Positions 9,849 to 18,083 of a DNA stretch of 49,005 nt are shown here, in pieces. This DNA is from Roseiflexus sp. (lineage in GTDB: Bacteria; Chloroflexota; Chloroflexia; Chloroflexales; Roseiflexaceae). Location: assembly GCA_025062325.1 (NCBI GenBank), contig JANXAL010000120.1:1-49005 (forward strand). The letters are read 5' to 3'. The notes under the pieces are model-generated. The model was not told the DNA's origin and did no database searches. It saw only the letters and a program-made list of their open reading frames with translations. The translations under genes and the position numbers were made by a program. The stretch's first letter is position 1. Each line of letters begins with the position of its first letter.

Positions 9849-11333
9849 CTAATCCTCCCAGAACGGCCGCGCCCATCGGCGGCGCACCAGTTCGGCGCGC
9901 AGGTCGAGCATAGCGGTGTAGGTCGGCAGGGCATAGAGCGTCGCGCCTGGCGGCAACCGCGAAAGCGCCACGTCCAGCGCCTCTGCTGGATCGTCCGCGA
10001 CGGTCATGCGCTCCGGTTCAACCCCCGCATATTTCAGGCGCACTGCCATATCCGCCGCGCGCGTCCCGCCGACCGTCGCGTGCGCCACATGCCCCGCCAG
10101 GCGCTCGAATTCCGCATCCCACAGCCACGAAACGTCCGTGCCATCGGCGTAACGGTCGTTGATCAGAATGAGAAGATGGAGAAGGGTTGAAGGTTGAATG
10201 TTGCCCGTAGAGACGTTGCCCTGCAACGTCTCCGCCGCCGCCGTGTCGCCTCGTAACGTCTTCGTTGAACGTTCGACGTTCAACGAATCGGTCAGCATAC
10301 GGATGGTTTCGGTGGCGCCAACGGGGTTTTTGATCAGGGCGATCAGCAACGGGCGCCCGCCTGCATCGACCCGCTCGATGCGTCCGAAGGCGGCGTCGAA
10401 GCGCTCGAGCGTGGCGCGAATGCGCGATGCCGGAACGCCAAGCTCCCGGCAGGCCGCAATCGCAGCGAGCGCGTTGATAGCGTTGTACAGCCCGGGGAGC
10501 GGCAGATGCACCTCCATTGCGCTCCCTGGGAACGTCAGGTAGAGGGTTGTGGTTTCTGTGCCGTGAAGGTCCAACCGCTCCAGAGCATAGTCCGGCGTCG
10601 GGCGCATTGCGCCGCACGAGTCGCACCGGTAATGCCCGATATGGGCGTAGAACAAGGCAGTGTAACGGTAGGGGGCGCCACAGCGTCGGCAAAAGCGAGC
10701 ATCGCCGATCTGCGCCGCTGCACCCGAGGCATGGCGCAGATCGTTGAGACCATAATAGCGCACCTTTGCTGACAACCCTTCGCCGAGCGCCGCCACTGCC
10801 GGATCGTCGGCGTTGAGCAGCACGGTCGTCGTGGCAGGAAGTCGTTCGAGCGCAGCCCGCCACCCCTGCGCTACGGTATCCACCTCGCCGTAGCGATCAA
10901 GCTGATCGCGGAACAGATTGTGCAGCACAACCAGACGTGGCGCAGTTTCTGCTGCTATGCCCGGAAAGGCGGCTTCATCGGTTTCAAACAGACCGATGTG
11001 CGCGTGTGTGCGTCCGCCCAGCGATGCGCCAGCCAGCGCCGTCGCCGTCACGCCGCTCATCAGATTGGCGCCAGCGCGATTGTGGAGCGGCGTTCGTCCG
11101 TCGTCCGCCAGTATCGCCGCGATCATGCGGGTGGTGGTAGTTTTGCCGTTGGTGCCGGAGACCAGCACAACCCCACGCGGCAGCGTCGCCGTCAATTTCT
11201 GCAACACCTGCGGATCGATCCGCTGGGCGACGACGCCGGGAAGCGTCGTACCGCCGCCACGCCGCAGCATGCGGCTGGCGATGCCAGCCGATTTCCCGGC
11301 GGCGACCGCCAGCAACAGTCGGAGATCAATCAT
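9849..11333 (-). CDS. murT: Lipid II isoglutaminyl synthase subunit MurT
   Basis: A 494-residue Mur-ligase family protein. It has the ATP-binding GTNGKTTT loop (60-67), the Mur-ligase middle domain with DEAAFPG and LHNLFRDQLDRYGE, and four cysteines (215, 218, 237, 240) forming the zinc ribbon diagnostic of MurT. The C-terminal DUF1727 region has DVSWLWD (Asp406 region) and ends at RPFWED. With GatD, MurT amidates D-glutamate in the peptidoglycan stem. No gatD lies next to it: the next gene downstream is the convergent vapC. Residues ~349-385 are an insertion derived from two palindromic DNA repeats, placed between KNPVGATETIRML and LLILINDRYADGTD. Gene length without it would be normal. Confidence 0.9.
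   Translation of the reverse strand: MIDLRLLLAVAAGKSAGIASRMLRRGGGTTLPGVVAQRIDPQVLQKLTATLPRGVVLVSGTNGKTTTTRMIAAILADDGRTPLHNRAGANLMSGVTATALAGASLGGRTHAHIGLFETDEAAFPGIAAETAPRLVVLHNLFRDQLDRYGEVDTVAQGWRAALERLPATTTVLLNADDPAVAALGEGLSAKVRYYGLNDLRHASGAAAQIGDARFCRRCGAPYRYTALFYAHIGHYRCDSCGAMRPTPDYALERLDLHGTETTTLYLTFPGSAMEVHLPLPGLYNAINALAAIAACRELGVPASRIRATLERFDAAFGRIERVDAGGRPLLIALIKNPVGATETIRMLTDSLNVERSTKTLRGDTAAAETLQGNVSTGNIQPSTLLHLLILINDRYADGTDVSWLWDAEFERLAGHVAHATVGGTRAADMAVRLKYAGVEPERMTVADDPAEALDVALSRLPPGATLYALPTYTAMLDLRAELVRRRWARPFWED
10179..10289. repeat. 111-bp in-frame insertion with two perfect palindromes inside murT
   Basis: Palindrome 1 at 10210-10232 has arms GAGACGTTGC/GCAACGTCTC and a 3-base loop. 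Palindrome 2 at 10263-10285 has arms CGTTGAACGT/ACGTTCAACG and a 3-base loop. The insert adds 37 codons with no frame disruption between two conserved MurT motifs. GACGTTGC-type words also start the intergenic repeats at 16563-16750 and 23924, so this appears to be the same repeat family landing inside a gene. Confidence 0.8.
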
Positions 11334-11348
11334 GGGTGCGCAAACGGG

Positions 11349-12083
11349 CTACTTTCCGGTCAATCCGTGGCGCGCCGCCACGACTTCGGCAATGATACTG
11401 ACTGCGATCTCCTCCGGAGAGTCCGACCCGATCTTCAGACCAATGGGCGCATGCAGACGCGCCAGTTGCTCTTCCGGCACCCCTTCGGCGCGCAGGCGCT
11501 CCAGGCGCCTGGCATGCGTCCGAGGGCTGCCCAATGCCCCGACGTAGCGCGCTGGCGAGGAAAGCGCCACCTTCAGCGCTGGATCGTCCAGCTTCGGGTC
11601 GTGGGTCAGCAGCACCACGAAACTGTTGCTGGTGAGGCGTCCGGGCAGCACTTCATCGGGCCAGGCGTGGATCAGTTCATCGGCATGCGCAAACCGCTCA
11701 GGAGTAGCGAACGCGCTACGCGCATCGATCACCACGGTGCGAAAACCGAGCGTCTTGGCGAATGTCACTAGCGGAATAGCAATATGCACCGCTCCGACAA
11801 TAAACATCGTCGGAGGCGGCGGATAGGTTTCGATGAAGACCTGCACCTCGCCATCGGCGACGGTATAGGTGCGAATGCCGCTTTCAGCACGCAGCAGCAT
11901 CGCCAGTGCATCACGTTCAACCGCTTCATTCAGCCCGGGATCGCCTAGCGTGCCCAGCAATGCTTCGCCGGGACGCGCCAGTAGCTTGGCGCCGATCGGA
12001 CCTGCCCCATCAATGATCGTTGCCATAGCGACTGGCTGCTCGGCGTCAAGGCATGCCTTGAGGGTGGTATAAAGCATCGTCAT
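11349..12083 (-). CDS. XdhC/CoxI-family protein (full-length, Rossmann domain)
   Basis: A 244-residue protein with a degenerate XdhC N-terminal domain (VAMATIIDGAGPIGAKLL, LGTLGDPGLNEAVE, VQVFIETYPPPP). A C-terminal Rossmann-like XdhC_C domain follows (MFIVGAVHIAIPLVTFAKTLGF, VVLLTHDPKLDDPAL, YVGALGSPRTHARRLERL, IGLKIGSDSPEEIAVSIIAE). XdhC proteins protect and sulfurate the molybdenum cofactor for xanthine/CO dehydrogenases. No molybdo-enzyme gene lies in this window. It is followed after 15 bases by murT, so they may share a transcript. GGAAAA precedes the ATG. Confidence 0.85.
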   Translation of the reverse strand: MTMLYTTLKACLDAEQPVAMATIIDGAGPIGAKLLARPGEALLGTLGDPGLNEAVERDALAMLLRAESGIRTYTVADGEVQVFIETYPPPPTMFIVGAVHIAIPLVTFAKTLGFRTVVIDARSAFATPERFAHADELIHAWPDEVLPGRLTSNSFVVLLTHDPKLDDPALKVALSSPARYVGALGSPRTHARRLERLRAEGVPEEQLARLHAPIGLKIGSDSPEEIAVSIIAEVVAARHGLTGK

Positions 12084-12562
12084 CGTATTTTCCGTTCACA
12101 TAAAGGGTTTCTCATACGACGATCGACTCAGACGTTGAACAAGTGAGATGCCGGAGCTGCTTCAGATACCGACGCGAGGATCCGTGCACGAATGGTCAGG
12201 CGGCGGCGTCCTCACGGCGATGCACTTGAAACAGCGACTGGCGAACATTATGAAATTGATCCGGTAAATCTGTGCCATCAGGCAGCGCACGATCTGAGCT
12301 GCAGGCTATTCGGTATATCTGCACTGCCAGGCTGCGCATTCTCTAAGCTGCGGGCTAAAGACCCCGCTCAGGACGCGGATGCCCCAGAGGAGCTTTCGTG
12401 ACCTCAGCAAGGGCTTCAGTCCGCCGCGTCTGGGAATACTGGACTGTTTTCTTAATCTTCATCAACCGCTCACAGTGGCGGGAACACGCACCGAGCCGCT
12501 TATGTGTTTCGCGTCAGCCCTGCCCTAAGTATGATACAGCGCAAGGCGGCTGCCCGTGGATA
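12084..12562. other. 480-base gap with an interspersed palindromic repeat
   Basis: No gene recognised. An ~80-base element starting GCTGCGGGCT at 12347 and running to about 12426 (CAGCAAGGGCTTCAGTCCGC) matches the element at 18114-18193 in its start, length and 'GAGCAAGGGC' end. It belongs to an intergenic repeat family. The rest of the gap shows nothing I can support. Confidence 0.55.
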
Positions 12563-12877
12563 TCACCAATCGAGAGGCTCGACGAATACGTCGATCATGC
12601 CGCCGCACGCCAGCCCGACGTCCCAGGCTTCATCATCGGCGACGCCGAAGTGCAGCAACTGCGCTTTGCCGGTGCGTATCGCTTCCTGGCAGGCGTCGAA
12701 GACCGCTCCCTCGATGCAGCCGCCACTGACTGAACCAGCCATGGCGCCGCTCGATGAAACTGCCATTTTTGCACCAACTCCACGCGGCGCGGAACCGAGC
12801 GTCTTCACCACCGTGGCAATCGCCACCCGCTCGCCGCGCGCACGCCATTGCTCGATTGCGGGAAGAACGTCTCTCAT
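12563..12877 (-). CDS. XdhC N-terminal domain protein (XdhC/CoxI family)
   Basis: A 104-residue stand-alone XdhC_CoxI domain: MRDVLPAIEQW, VAIATVVKTLGSAPRGVGAKM, AGSVSGGCIEGAVFDACQEAI, FGVADDEAWDVGLACGGMIDVFVEP. The ATG at 12877 is chosen because GAGGT sits six to seven bases upstream and MRDV is the usual family start; an ATG at 12883 is also in frame. It lies 22 bases after the NodB fusion gene and 480 bases before the full-length XdhC gene. Split N-domain plus full-length partners are common next to molybdenum hydroxylases, though none is present here. Confidence 0.85.
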   Translation of the reverse strand: MRDVLPAIEQWRARGERVAIATVVKTLGSAPRGVGAKMAVSSSGAMAGSVSGGCIEGAVFDACQEAIRTGKAQLLHFGVADDEAWDVGLACGGMIDVFVEPLDW

Positions 12878-12899
12878 AGACATACCTCACAAAAACGAA

Positions 12900-14999
12900 T
12901 TAGCGCAGAGTTTCACTCAACGTTGTCGGTTCCAGACCAACGGCGCGGAGGCGGTCAATGACGCCGGGCAACATCCCTGCCGTCGCCGGGCGTCCATGCA
13001 TCAGCAGAATACCTCCCGCTGCCCACGCCGGATCACGTGCTGCACGGTCAAGCCACGCCGGAATCGCTCGATCGTCGGCGCTCCAATAGTACGGAATAAA
13101 CCCTTCCGCTGTGACTGCGGCAATCGCCTGCGCGGTATAGTCGCCATATGGAAAGCGAAAGCGCGGTCGCGTACTTTGACCAGTGATCTCCTGGACAATT
13201 CGTTCGGTCTCACGCAACTCATTCGCTATGCCATCGAGACCGATCCGTGAGAAGGAGGGATGCGTGAGTGAATGATTGGCGATCTCGTGCCCTTCGGCGA
13301 CAATCGCGCGCGCAGCGTCAGGAAAGCGCTTGACCCAATTCCCCGTGACGAAGAACGTTCCTCTGACGTTGCGCTGTCGCAGCGCTTCAAGAATGGCATA
13401 GAGCGTCGCATCGTCAATTTCGATATCGAACGTCAGCGCCACCCTGCCGGACGCCGGGTTGCCGCGGCGCACCGGTTCGGTCAGCCCGAATGCCGGTTCT
13501 CCGTTGCGGAACAGCGGAATCGCCAGCGCCCGTTCAGGGCGCAACGGCGCAGCAGGGTCGATTGCGTTCAAAGCGGCGATCGCTGCAACATCACTGCCCA
13601 GGCGCGCTGCGACGCCATCCAGCGTCTCGCCAGCAGCAACGAGATGAACCGTATACCCGATGGGCGCGGGCAGCGGCGTGGGAGAGGGAGGCGGCAACGG
13701 CGTCGGCGTTGCGGTTGGTTCGCTGAATGGCAGACTGACCGGCAAAAACGCCAGACGCCCGGCGGTTGGCGCTTCCTCAATGCGCGCCGTTGGAGCTGCT
13801 CCCCGAAGCGCGTATGACTCATCAGATAACGATCGCCCTGGTGCACGGAACAGGTATTCGCCGAGGATCAGCGCAGCGCCGAGGGCAACCGCCGCAACGA
13901 AGGGCAGCGGCTGAGTCATCGAGCGCGGGCGCGCGGCGCGGCGCGGCAAGGGTCGGAACAGTACGCCGGTGTCGGGCGCAGCCCGCAGCACTGGCGCGCC
14001 CCACACGTCGCCGATCCGCGCCAGCGCCGCGCGCCCGGCTGTTACGGCGAGATCGACCGGCGCCCCCAGCGCCAGTTGATCGTAACAGAGCGCCGCAAAC
14101 CGCGCCGCTTCGTCCGCCAGCAACGGCGCACTGAACGCAATTGTGGCGGGCAGGCGCTCATCGATCAGCAACGCAGCGCAGAGCACGGAGGCGATGTCAA
14201 GTAGCCGTCCGTCTCCCTCACTGCCGGTCAACGTCACCAGCCGCAGTTCTGCCACGTCTGCCAGCAGATCGATCAGGTCGCCAGCGTCGAGCATAGCGCC
14301 AAGGTCCAGTTCGAGCCGCCGTTCAGGCGTCAGAATGACACGCGCCGCTATATGCAGCACGTGCGGCGCCTCGTCCGCCAGCGCCCGACGCAGGGTTGCA
14401 GGATTGGCGTCCAGCGCCGTCCGCAGGTCGATCCGACCGGCGCGAATGCCAGGCGCCAGTGCGCGTTCGAGTGCGTCCAGGCAGTGCCCATTGCCAGGCG
14501 AGGCGACTGCCAGCACCCGCAGCGGCTCGCGCAAGGGCAGCGGCGGTGGCGGCTGGATGCGCCTCCCAGCCCGAACCAGCGTGTAATCAGCGCGCAGCGC
14601 AGGCGTCCAGACATTCGTGCTGCCCAGCGACACGTATTCCCAGGGAAGCGCTGCAAGCTCAGGTGCGTTGATCTGCAACCGCATCTGCAGGCGCGCGCCC
14701 TCTGCGGCGGCGGAACGCGCAGCATCGAGCAGAAGCGTGCGAACCGGCAGCGTGAACAGCGCCCGCCCCAGCGCCCGACCGACAGTCGGAACGTCCTCAA
14801 TCCGCTGCATCCCCGCGTGGAGCGCCTGGCATCCCAGGTTGAGCAGCGGTTCCGCCAGATGCAACCCCGACACCACGGCGCGTCCGTTGACGCTCGCCTG
14901 CACCGGGCAATGACCGTTGTCATCGAAGGGACCGATGGCGATGTGGAAGACAACCACTGGCGTGGCTTCGATGGCCGACCGGCCCGCAACTGAGTGCAT
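12900..14999 (-). CDS. CHAT-like domain - TM helix - LysM - NodB polysaccharide deacetylase fusion
   Basis: A 699-residue multidomain protein; residue numbers here count from the ATG at 14999. Residues ~10-350 resemble a CHAT (caspase-like) region: LPWEYVSLG, PLRVLAVASP, APHVLHIAARV and LRLVTLTGSEGDGRLL. The usual catalytic HGxG-type histidine and the cysteine of 'LsaC' are replaced (HIAARV; TLTGSEG), so it looks inactive. One membrane helix follows (~365-380), then a Pro/Thr linker, a LysM domain (~447-497) and a NodB domain (~515-690). The NodB part keeps the TFD aspartate, HSLTH, RFPYG and LLMHG motifs, but the first motif is TFDIEIDD rather than TFDDG. The start at 14999 has AGAGGA just upstream; a more 5' ATG lies inside the promoter palindrome. 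The deacetylase would face outside, bound to glycan by LysM. Confidence 0.7.
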   Translation of the reverse strand: MHSVAGRSAIEATPVVVFHIAIGPFDDNGHCPVQASVNGRAVVSGLHLAEPLLNLGCQALHAGMQRIEDVPTVGRALGRALFTLPVRTLLLDAARSAAAEGARLQMRLQINAPELAALPWEYVSLGSTNVWTPALRADYTLVRAGRRIQPPPPLPLREPLRVLAVASPGNGHCLDALERALAPGIRAGRIDLRTALDANPATLRRALADEAPHVLHIAARVILTPERRLELDLGAMLDAGDLIDLLADVAELRLVTLTGSEGDGRLLDIASVLCAALLIDERLPATIAFSAPLLADEAARFAALCYDQLALGAPVDLAVTAGRAALARIGDVWGAPVLRAAPDTGVLFRPLPRRAARPRSMTQPLPFVAAVALGAALILGEYLFRAPGRSLSDESYALRGAAPTARIEEAPTAGRLAFLPVSLPFSEPTATPTPLPPPSPTPLPAPIGYTVHLVAAGETLDGVAARLGSDVAAIAALNAIDPAAPLRPERALAIPLFRNGEPAFGLTEPVRRGNPASGRVALTFDIEIDDATLYAILEALRQRNVRGTFFVTGNWVKRFPDAARAIVAEGHEIANHSLTHPSFSRIGLDGIANELRETERIVQEITGQSTRPRFRFPYGDYTAQAIAAVTAEGFIPYYWSADDRAIPAWLDRAARDPAWAAGGILLMHGRPATAGMLPGVIDRLRAVGLEPTTLSETLR

Positions 15000-15027
15000 G
15001 GTTCCTCTCATCTGGGTGCTCACTTGC

Positions 15028-15043
15028 TGGTACAATTGTACCA
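15028..15043. promoter_or_regulatory. Palindromic bidirectional promoter between divergent genes
   Basis: TGGTACAATTGTACCA is a perfect 16-bp palindrome that gives an extended -10 (TGG-TACAAT) on both strands. It lies about 35 bases from the ATG of each divergent gene (14999 minus, 15070 plus). Only one polymerase could use it at a time. No good -35 is seen on either side. It could also act as an operator for a dimeric repressor. Confidence 0.5.
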
Positions 15044-15069
15044 TGGCGCGAGGTAAGCGTTTTTGTGAT

Positions 15070-15787
15070 ATGAAATCCCTGTTCTCGATTTATGCTTCTA
15101 GTGCTGCTCACATCCTGCGGATCGGCAGCAACGCCGGACGCACGGATCGATGGCGCGCCCTCGCCGACTGCCAGCGCTCAAATGACGCCTGCTGTCACCG
15201 ACGCAAAAGCCCGCCCGACATCACCGCCGTTGTCGACTTCGCCAACCGTCGAGACCGATCGGACGGCAACGATTGTTCAGCCGGACATCACGCCAACTGC
15301 GGCGCCGACTGCGGAACAGGCAAGTCCCGCTTCGCCTGCGCCAGACACCCAGGCGATCATCTGGGAGGGATTGTCCATTCCAATTCCGCCCCGGCATCTC
15401 TGGTCAGACAAGACGCCCGGATCGGACACGATCACCAATGCGCGCGTGCTGGCTCAGGGGCGTATCGTCTTCGATCGTACGGATGCGCCTCCGGGGAGCG
15501 TCGAATTGCCGGATGGCGTCGGCTTCACGATTGTTGCGTTCAGCGGTTCTCCGAATGAATGGCTGGCACTGGTGCAACAGCCGGCGCCTGCGCAGAATCC
15601 GGTCGATCTAGACTCAATCACAACGACTGAGGTTGCAGGCCAGCCTGCGATTGTCTACAATCATCTTGTCACGGGTGTTGGCGACCGCCGGACATACATC
15701 GTGAAGCTCAGCCTGGATCGATTGTTGATCATCGATGACACCGGATATCAAAGCGTCATCGATGGTCTCGCCATCGTCTCGCAGTAG
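15070..15787 (+). CDS. Lipoprotein of unknown function, signal peptide frameshifted
   Basis: The mature part follows a lipobox LLTSC and a long Pro/Thr/Ala-rich spacer, then a ~150-residue domain (IIWEGLSIPIPPRHLW, GVGFTIVAFSG, GQPAIVYNHLV, YIVKLSLDRLLIIDD). In one frame the protein starts at ATG 15092 (231 residues) with a signal peptide lacking positive charge. In another frame ATG 15070 gives MKSLFSI, exactly the missing n-region. Removing one T at 15091 joins them into a normal lipoprotein signal. So the gene carries a +1 shift in its signal region, or the base call is wrong. It is divergent from the CHAT-NodB gene with a shared palindromic promoter. Likely an outer-face lipid-anchored protein. 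Confidence 0.65.
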
Positions 15788-16562: not shown

Positions 16563-16750
16563 GACGTTGCGGCGCAACGCCGCTCCCGGTCATCCCTCGT
16601 GCCGCACGCCTCGCGCCCCGCGCCTTAGCCATCCACAGCAGGACGTTGCGGTACAATGTCGCTACCGGTCATCCTCGTGCCGCGCGCCCCGCGCCCCGCG
16701 CCTTAGCCATCCACAGCAGGACGTTGCGGTGCAACGCCGCTACCGGTCAT
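16563..16750. repeat. 78/79-bp tandem repeat, about 2.5 copies
   Basis: Units begin with GACGTTGCGG at 16563, 16642 and 16720. Each starts with a small palindrome (CGTTGCGGCGCAACG or variant), followed by CCGGTCATCC and then GCCTTAGCCATCCACAGCAG. The third unit is cut by the 3' end of the glycosyltransferase gene. The rest of 16310-16562 shows no gene; it includes ACCTGCAACCTGCCCACATTCAACC-like words resembling the murT insertion. Confidence 0.75.
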
Positions 16751-18083
16751 CCCTCGCGCCTCTTGCTCCGCGCCTCTCACCTCTTGTCTCTTGCCTCTCG
16801 CCTCGTATCCCCACCATCGCCTCATACTCACGCTTCGTCCGGCGCGCAACCACGGGCCAGTCGAAGGTCTCGCGCACGATGCGAACGCTCTCTTCGCCCC
16901 AGGCCGCCCAGCGGTCGCGCTGATCTAGCGCCAACCGAATTTTTGCCGCCAGATCATCGGCGTCGCCGGGGCGCGCCAGATAGCCGTTGCGCCCGTCGAA
17001 CACCTTGTCGGGGATGCCGCCTGCCGCCGATGCAACGATCGGACGGCGGTGGATCATAGCTTCTAGCGTCACGAGCGATGAGCCTTCGTAGAGTGTTGGG
17101 TGAACGAACAGATCGACCTCTTCGTAGAGATTGTGCAGTTCGGCGTCGTTGAGCTGTCCTACGAATGTAACGCGGTCGAGGATGCCAGCCTGTTGCGCCT
17201 GTCGTTCCAGGGCGCAGCGCTCCTTCCCCTCGCCGACCAGCAGCCAGCGCCAGTGTAGCGGCAGGCGCGCCCGCAGTCGGGTGAGCGCGTCAATCAGGAC
17301 GTGGTACCCTTTGTTGCGCTCCAGCCGACCAACGCTGAGGAGCGTCAGATCCGTCTCATCAAGACAGAATCGCCGACGAAGCGCAGCGCGTGTAGCGTCG
17401 TTGACCGGCGCCAGACACTCATCGGCGTCGATGGCGCTGGGAATGACGACGACCTTCGCTGGATCGACTCCCAGATAGCGTGGCAGGTCGTCCTGCGTGC
17501 AGGCATCGGTAGCGATAGCCCGGTCGGCGCAGCGCGTCCCATAGGAGTAGAGCGCGCGGAAGGGCGCATACGCCAACCATTTGCGTCGGTCAGGGGTGCG
17601 GTACTCCTCCAGTCCATGCGGGTTGGCGACAAACGGCACGCGGCGCAGCAACGGATCACGGACGCGGATCCATCCGTAGCCAAATGCGCACAATCCCTGC
17701 GCATGCACCACGTCATACGCGCCACGCCGTGCTGCCGTCGCCGCCATACACCCCAATTGCCACGAATACCAGGGATAGTTGATCTGTCGTCCCAGGATGG
17801 AGTTGGGGCGCAATACCGGTGACGTGTAATCGTAACGCAGTGTGATCACGTACTCGATGCCGGGAAGAACATGAGCGTATGGATTGGCAGAGCGCATCGC
17901 ATCACTATCCGGCGCGTCACGTCGCGGAGTCTGTATATAGAGCGTTACCCGAACGCCAAGCCGCGCCAGGTGCGTTGTCAGGTGGAATACATGGCGTTCG
18001 ATGCCGCCGAAGCCGTGGAGCGGAAACACAACGCGCGCCAGCATTGCAACGCGCAGCGCATCGGGTGGAAATGAGTCGCTCAT
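16740..18083 (-). CDS. Glycosyltransferase family 4 (GT-B fold)
   Basis: A 447-residue GT4-type enzyme that would transfer a sugar from an activated donor in the cytoplasm. The N-terminal domain has the glycine-rich acceptor loop (PLHGFGGIERHVFHLTTHL) and DVVHAQGLCAFGYGW. The C-terminal domain has LLSVGRLERNKGYHVLIDAL, GEGKERCALERQ, VTFVGQLNDAELHNLYEEVDLFVHPTLYEGSSLVTLEAM (the E-x7-E region) and SAAGGIPDKVFDGRNGYLA. The last ~22 residues (RGERQETRGERRGARGARDDR) are a low-complexity basic tail encoded by intergenic repeat DNA, so the original stop was probably lost. Likely role: polysaccharide or glycolipid synthesis. Confidence 0.85.
   Translation of the reverse strand: MSDSFPPDALRVAMLARVVFPLHGFGGIERHVFHLTTHLARLGVRVTLYIQTPRRDAPDSDAMRSANPYAHVLPGIEYVITLRYDYTSPVLRPNSILGRQINYPWYSWQLGCMAATAARRGAYDVVHAQGLCAFGYGWIRVRDPLLRRVPFVANPHGLEEYRTPDRRKWLAYAPFRALYSYGTRCADRAIATDACTQDDLPRYLGVDPAKVVVIPSAIDADECLAPVNDATRAALRRRFCLDETDLTLLSVGRLERNKGYHVLIDALTRLRARLPLHWRWLLVGEGKERCALERQAQQAGILDRVTFVGQLNDAELHNLYEEVDLFVHPTLYEGSSLVTLEAMIHRRPIVASAAGGIPDKVFDGRNGYLARPGDADDLAAKIRLALDQRDRWAAWGEESVRIVRETFDWPVVARRTKREYEAMVGIRGERQETRGERRGARGARDDR

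Follow-up and report, generated by a model that had tools for sequence, protein, structure and literature searches.

Locus and domain layout

The window, a 49,005-nucleotide stretch of a Roseiflexus sp. draft genome (contig JANXAL010000120.1), carries on its minus strand a gene whose longest open reading frame spans 12900–15044 and encodes 714 residues from an upstream ATG at 15044. Residue numbers throughout follow this 714-residue version; the start that we prefer is M16 (14999), because a Shine–Dalgarno-like AGAGGA lies directly 5′ of it and in-frame stops lie 5′ of the equivalent codon in two close orthologues (L010 and L013). On the same two observations we rejected a start at 15044 in favour of 14999, the start called earlier. 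A scan for promoters and terminators returned nothing beyond chance. The features of the gene are as follows.

12903–14999, minus strand: whole protein, 699 residues from M16 (stop codon 12900–12902)
13947–14999, minus strand: pseudo-CHAT domain, residues 16–366, cytoplasmic by prediction
14340–14342, minus strand: CHAT catalytic His site, here Arg235 (His in 20/20 aligned canonical CHATs)
14220–14222, minus strand: CHAT catalytic Cys site, here Ser275 (Cys in 20/20 aligned canonical CHATs)
13851–13907, minus strand: single membrane helix, residues about 380–398 (hydropathy and positive-inside count)
13650–13850, minus strand: Pro/Thr-rich outer spacer (from sequence)
13515–13646, minus strand: LysM domain, residues 467–510 (Pfam PF01476, 22.2 bits)
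12903–13472, minus strand: NodB/CE4 domain (PF01522, 95.7 bits; AF2 pLDDT 94.9; Z of 26 to BA3943)
13410–13433, minus strand: altered NodB motif 1, TFDIEIDD (D540 presumed base, E542 at +2)

Searched with the whole protein, Pfam reports only LysM (22.2 bits against a cut-off of 20.9) and Polysacc_deac_1 (residues 529–646, 95.7 bits against 23.1). The original prediction, made from the letters of this DNA, had quoted three CHAT-like strands (LPWEYVSLG, PHVLHIAARV and LRLVTLTGSEGDG), a single membrane helix, a Pro/Thr spacer, and LysM and NodB domains with the motifs HSLTH, RFPYG and TFDIEIDD. The strands are all present in the translation and the motifs agree letter for letter; the helix (~380–398, by hydrophobicity), the spacer and, through Pfam, the two outer domains were likewise found. 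Its placement of the N terminus in the cytoplasm and the C terminus outside holds as a prediction: Lys and Arg are more numerous on the CHAT side of the helix (five on the N side and three on the C side in the window protein, with an N-side excess in every aligned protein that has a clear helix), so the CHAT domain is predicted to lie inside and the LysM–NodB half outside.

The inner domain is predicted to adopt a CHAT fold

CHAT proteins are proteases of defence and cell-death pathways. An AlphaFold2 model of the N-terminal domain, built with 30 relatives as input, reached a mean pLDDT of 89.5 and a pTM of 0.86, and its best structural matches (Foldseek and VIA-align) are SAVED-CHAT, TPR-CHAT/Csx29, separase and DdvA, with VIA Z scores of 19–22 to TPR-CHAT/Csx29 over ~280 residues. 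A profile of the 30 relatives matches a SAVED-CHAT chain at E = 4.4e-9. The Pfam CHAT profile (PF12770) is more reticent: the N-terminal piece alone scores 16.2 bits (E = 0.0072) against a gathering score of 24, CHAT is unlisted for the full-length protein, and 14 of the 30 family members match it with E values no higher than 1 (1.3e-8 for the strongest). The structure matches and the family profile together identify the modelled domain as CHAT by fold, as had been proposed. A canonical CHAT from the same genome matches residues 85–366 at E = 4.7e-13, and this match and the inner-domain tree described below argue for common descent of the pseudo-CHATs with canonical CHATs.

Loss of the catalytic dyad under purifying selection

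We aligned 41 relatives, including the window protein, with an outgroup of 20 canonical Chloroflexota CHATs, the nearest found, whose catalytic sites read approximately HFxGHG and LxAC. The claim that both catalytic residues are replaced proved correct (R235 and S275), and the loss extends across the clade, with the complete His–Cys pair present in 0 of 41. At the His column stand R, P, A, T, D, E or G, with a single H (L011), and no protein has Cys at the Cys column. Ser stands there in the window protein and in five other fused proteins, as might be expected if a Ser or relocated nucleophile kept the protease active; elsewhere the residue is G, N, D, A, V, T, R, Q or K. Because the Cys column is not conserved, we reject a Ser-type protease and consider activity of this kind very improbable; the His column is just as variable, and the canonical glycines that flank the sites are gone too.

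In place of the dyad, the pseudo-CHATs share invariant residues of their own, namely G93, Q120, W146 (a gap in canonical CHATs) and C320, and they have lost residues characteristic of the canonical set (R120, GHG 234–236, C275 and Q305). This exchange of invariants, read from the alignment, points to altered constraint and not to decay. Among close orthologues, dN/dS is 0.14–0.35 for the pseudo-CHAT and 0.06–0.14 for NodB; purifying selection thus acts on inner and outer halves alike.

Compared with L010, the window gene shows less synonymous divergence across its pseudo-CHAT half (pS 0.30) than across its NodB half (0.50), which could reflect recombination or selection acting at the DNA level.

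Distribution and history of the fusion

The fused form occurs in all six Roseiflexus-type genomes searched, including a single-contig genome of 5.8 Mb (G003); two of the six copies have in-frame stops 5′ of the M16 equivalent, and one of these is also cut by a contig end. Outside this genus it is found elsewhere in the family and in Chloroflexaceae- and Oscillochloris-type genomes, and the CHAT–LysM–NodB join recurs in other genera and families at 40–90% identity. An artefact of assembly, or a recent accidental fusion, might be suspected in a 143-contig draft such as the window genome. Its probability is close to nil: orthologues with the same join, from several genera and from complete as well as draft genomes, rule out a chimera and establish the domain join as real, as first proposed.

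Across 158 genomes of the class, strong inner-domain matches (E < 1e-50) are confined to two Chloroflexales families, and 301 genomes of the phylum yielded only two further, distant matches at ~1e-41, both canonical CHATs. In the inner-domain tree all pseudo-CHATs form one clade (100/100), within which fused and solo forms are interspersed and imply at least four changes between the two states. Pseudo-CHATs without the outer half occur in Chloroflexus-type g16, g3/g7/g8, g21, g34 and part of g12. The outer-half tree, by comparison, places all fused copies in one clade set apart from 21 solo LysM–NodB proteins, which rules out these solo genes as split-off outer halves. Because the fused LysM–NodB halves form one clade, the two parts were most probably joined once, long ago, in an ancestor shared by these families, and the outer half was then lost repeatedly; an alternative to this scheme would be transfer between families.

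Retention of the inner half alone in several lineages, together with purifying selection, indicates that the pseudo-CHAT has a function of its own, and the deacetylase cannot by itself account for the inner domain, since the pseudo-CHAT stayed where the outer half is absent. These observations also bear on whether the pseudo-CHAT might be an inert scaffold, a folded cytoplasmic anchor for the wall enzyme. Free drift at the dyad positions and the higher conservation of the outer half would fit such a role, but an anchor would hardly persist alone in several lineages, acquire clade-specific invariant residues or hold dN/dS well below 1, and solo LysM–NodB paralogues do without a CHAT domain, having a hydrophobic segment at the N terminus instead. 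We regard the scaffold as distinctly unlikely.

The outer half retains most CE4 motif residues

The LysM–NodB portion was modelled at a pLDDT of 94.9. Among solved structures it is closest to BA3943 and BA0150 of Bacillus anthracis (Z about 26, 25–29% identity), of which BA3943 is labelled a CE4 pseudoenzyme in its structure entries and BA0150 (4M1B) is termed one in the literature (PMC10967932), where the tandem Asp of MT1 is described as base and metal ligand of CE4. The window protein has Ile541 at the second Asp position and Glu542 at +2 (TFDIEIDD), so the first NodB motif is altered as originally noted, a change whose effect on activity could go either way. Other CE4 residues are present: MT2 HSLTH (H591, H595), MT3 RFPYG (R630, P632), MT4 D657 and MT5 LMH (H683). 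In HP0310 of Helicobacter the metal is bound via an Asp at the +2 position and, because of this precedent, E542 may serve as a metal ligand in a similar way.

TFDIEID is retained across the fused proteins with one decayed exception (L104), and Glu occupies the +2 position in every intact fused protein; in intact fused copies the Arg, Pro, MT4 Asp and MT5 His are conserved and the MT2 His pair and its context nearly always are. We lean towards an active enzyme for this putative deacetylase.

L104 (G077:C222) is a decaying copy: a stop codon interrupts the reading frame between the two parts of its CHAT region, and its NodB has jointly lost the Glu of motif 1 and the first His of MT2. In L016/L047 (CALLZL010000657.1), the contig end inside the NodB reading frame looks adapter-derived.

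Gene neighbourhood and genome context

Around the window gene lie genes for a GT4 glycosyltransferase (16743–18083), MurT and MreB, and in Roseiflexus loci two XdhC-family open reading frames and the MurT ligase (9852–12883 in the window) follow on the same strand. PGA_cap, LCP and NAGPA occur near the fused gene in genus g17, and the neighbours of fused forms lean towards the envelope. The GT4 gene adjoins the pseudo-CHAT gene, fused or solo, in nearly all Roseiflexaceae loci read. This link is weak because the GT4 gene is single-copy across the order, including Herpetosiphon-type genomes that lack a pseudo-CHAT, and is unlinked to the pseudo-CHAT gene in the Chloroflexaceae-type family; we therefore set aside a conserved operon as a clue to function. 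SelA and kynureninase, which neighbour solo forms, do not point to the envelope and gave no functional lead.

In three genera (L058, L059, L060, L062 and L064), a conserved gene run comprises the GT4 gene, a solo pseudo-CHAT and SelA (selenocysteine synthase). Between the pseudo-CHAT gene and the GT4 gene, the window carries a lipoprotein-like open reading frame (LLTSCGS, 15092–15787) on the opposite strand; it also occurs near the gene in L040 and is uncalled in other orthologous loci.

Elsewhere in the window genome, several CHAT-family loci score above the Pfam cut-off (G000:C119, C111, C75, C65 and C22) and are possible partners of the pseudo-CHAT. No canonical CHAT gene was seen linked to a pseudo-CHAT at the loci examined.

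A candidate membrane-tethered wall deacetylase with a docking domain

The explanation that we prefer, with a probability of about 0.5, is that the fused gene encodes a Chloroflexales-specific single-pass protein, a wall deacetylase tethered to the membrane, with a pseudoprotease in the cytoplasm as its docking domain. The dead CHAT domain would face the cytoplasm and the LysM-anchored CE4 domain the wall. Because its fold and new invariants are kept while the dyad drifts freely, the pseudo-CHAT would most likely be a protein-docking domain; by binding a cytoplasmic partner it would place, or switch, the wall-glycan deacetylase at that membrane site. We infer this coupling across the membrane, and with it the direction of signalling. 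The original prediction had read the protein as an inside-out signalling device: the CHAT fold, the loss of the dyad, the predicted N-in/C-out orientation and the join all stand, whereas the apparent repeated loss of the outer half speaks against strict inside-out control of the deacetylase.

Signalling might instead run from the outside in, with LysM–NodB (possibly itself a pseudoenzyme) sensing wall glycan and the pseudo-CHAT serving as output, for example by regulating the active CHAT proteins of the genome as a caspase-like decoy or adaptor. Because the pseudo-CHAT has persisted where the outer half is missing, such a receptor stays in consideration at a lower probability, as a tentative alternative. 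It would agree with the pseudoenzyme status of the closest NodB structures, with the CHAT-family loci of the genome itself and with the CHAT-like fold in the transmembrane regulator DdvA (Z of 18.4). It fits less well with NodB being the domain under strongest constraint, with the strict retention of its metal His pair and other motif residues wherever a fused copy is intact, and with the lack of canonical CHAT linkage at the loci examined. In a more specific and unlikely form, both halves would be pseudoenzymes, LysM–NodB reading wall glycan and the dead CHAT relaying to active CHATs or to an envelope-synthesis machine; if true, this receptor would link the state of the wall to caspase-like signalling in filamentous phototrophs.

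The fused protein suggests a way, open to experiment, in which filamentous Chloroflexales could link the state of the cytoplasm to their wall. The pseudo-CHAT clade, restricted to one order, is also a clear example of a protease fold made into a non-catalytic part.

Comparison with known systems

Fusions of caspase-clan domains with PF01522 (PMC3501461) and dead caspase homologues (PMC6426788) are already known. New is that a CHAT-family pseudoprotease is combined with a membrane helix and a LysM-anchored CE4 domain, an arrangement conserved within one order; no paper in the literature searched mentions both a CHAT domain and a polysaccharide deacetylase.

TPR-CHAT/Csx29 (Craspase) and SAVED-CHAT have their fold in common with the Roseiflexus protein over ~280 residues (Z of 19–22), and sequence similarity to SAVED-CHAT is detectable. 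Unlike them, the Roseiflexus protein is without the His–Cys dyad and without a TPR or SAVED part, and it has in addition a membrane helix and, outside, a wall domain. DdvA, a transmembrane anti-sigma factor of Myxococcus xanthus (8rot, 8rw5; doi 10.1126/sciadv.adp1053, as cited in PMC12288465), also has a CHAT-like fold (Z of 18.4 over 254 residues); the matched part comprises residues 706–991 of its chain, whereas the CHAT-like domain of the Roseiflexus protein is N-terminal and has a wall-enzyme half attached.

The dead caspase homologues, termed pseudo-orthocaspases, are caspase-fold proteins, found in phototrophs, that lost the His–Cys dyad, and the survey that described them found three in Chloroflexi (Ktedonobacteria and Anaerolineae) and none in phototrophic Chloroflexi (PMC6426788). 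They belong to the p20/C14 family with Tyr/Ser, and the Roseiflexus protein belongs to the CHAT family, so a tie between the two is ruled out.

For the outer half, BA3943 resembles the Roseiflexus NodB in being without the second MT1 Asp; its structures read TIDVAWG, with Ala at +2, whereas every intact fused protein has Glu there. Solo LysM–NodB proteins of Chloroflexales contain the same LysM–NodB unit, in many cases behind an N-terminal hydrophobic segment and a Pro/Thr spacer, but they form a separate clade, mostly have a TLDAG-type motif 1 and are without a CHAT domain. Xanthomonas-type metacaspases join a caspase-clan domain and PF01522 in one protein, as the Roseiflexus protein does. 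In these the deacetylase comes first, followed by a p20/C14 domain with an intact dyad and then TPRs (PMC3501461), whereas in the Roseiflexus protein, which has no Pfam match to a C14 domain, the CHAT domain comes first and is dead, and a membrane helix and LysM lie between the two parts.
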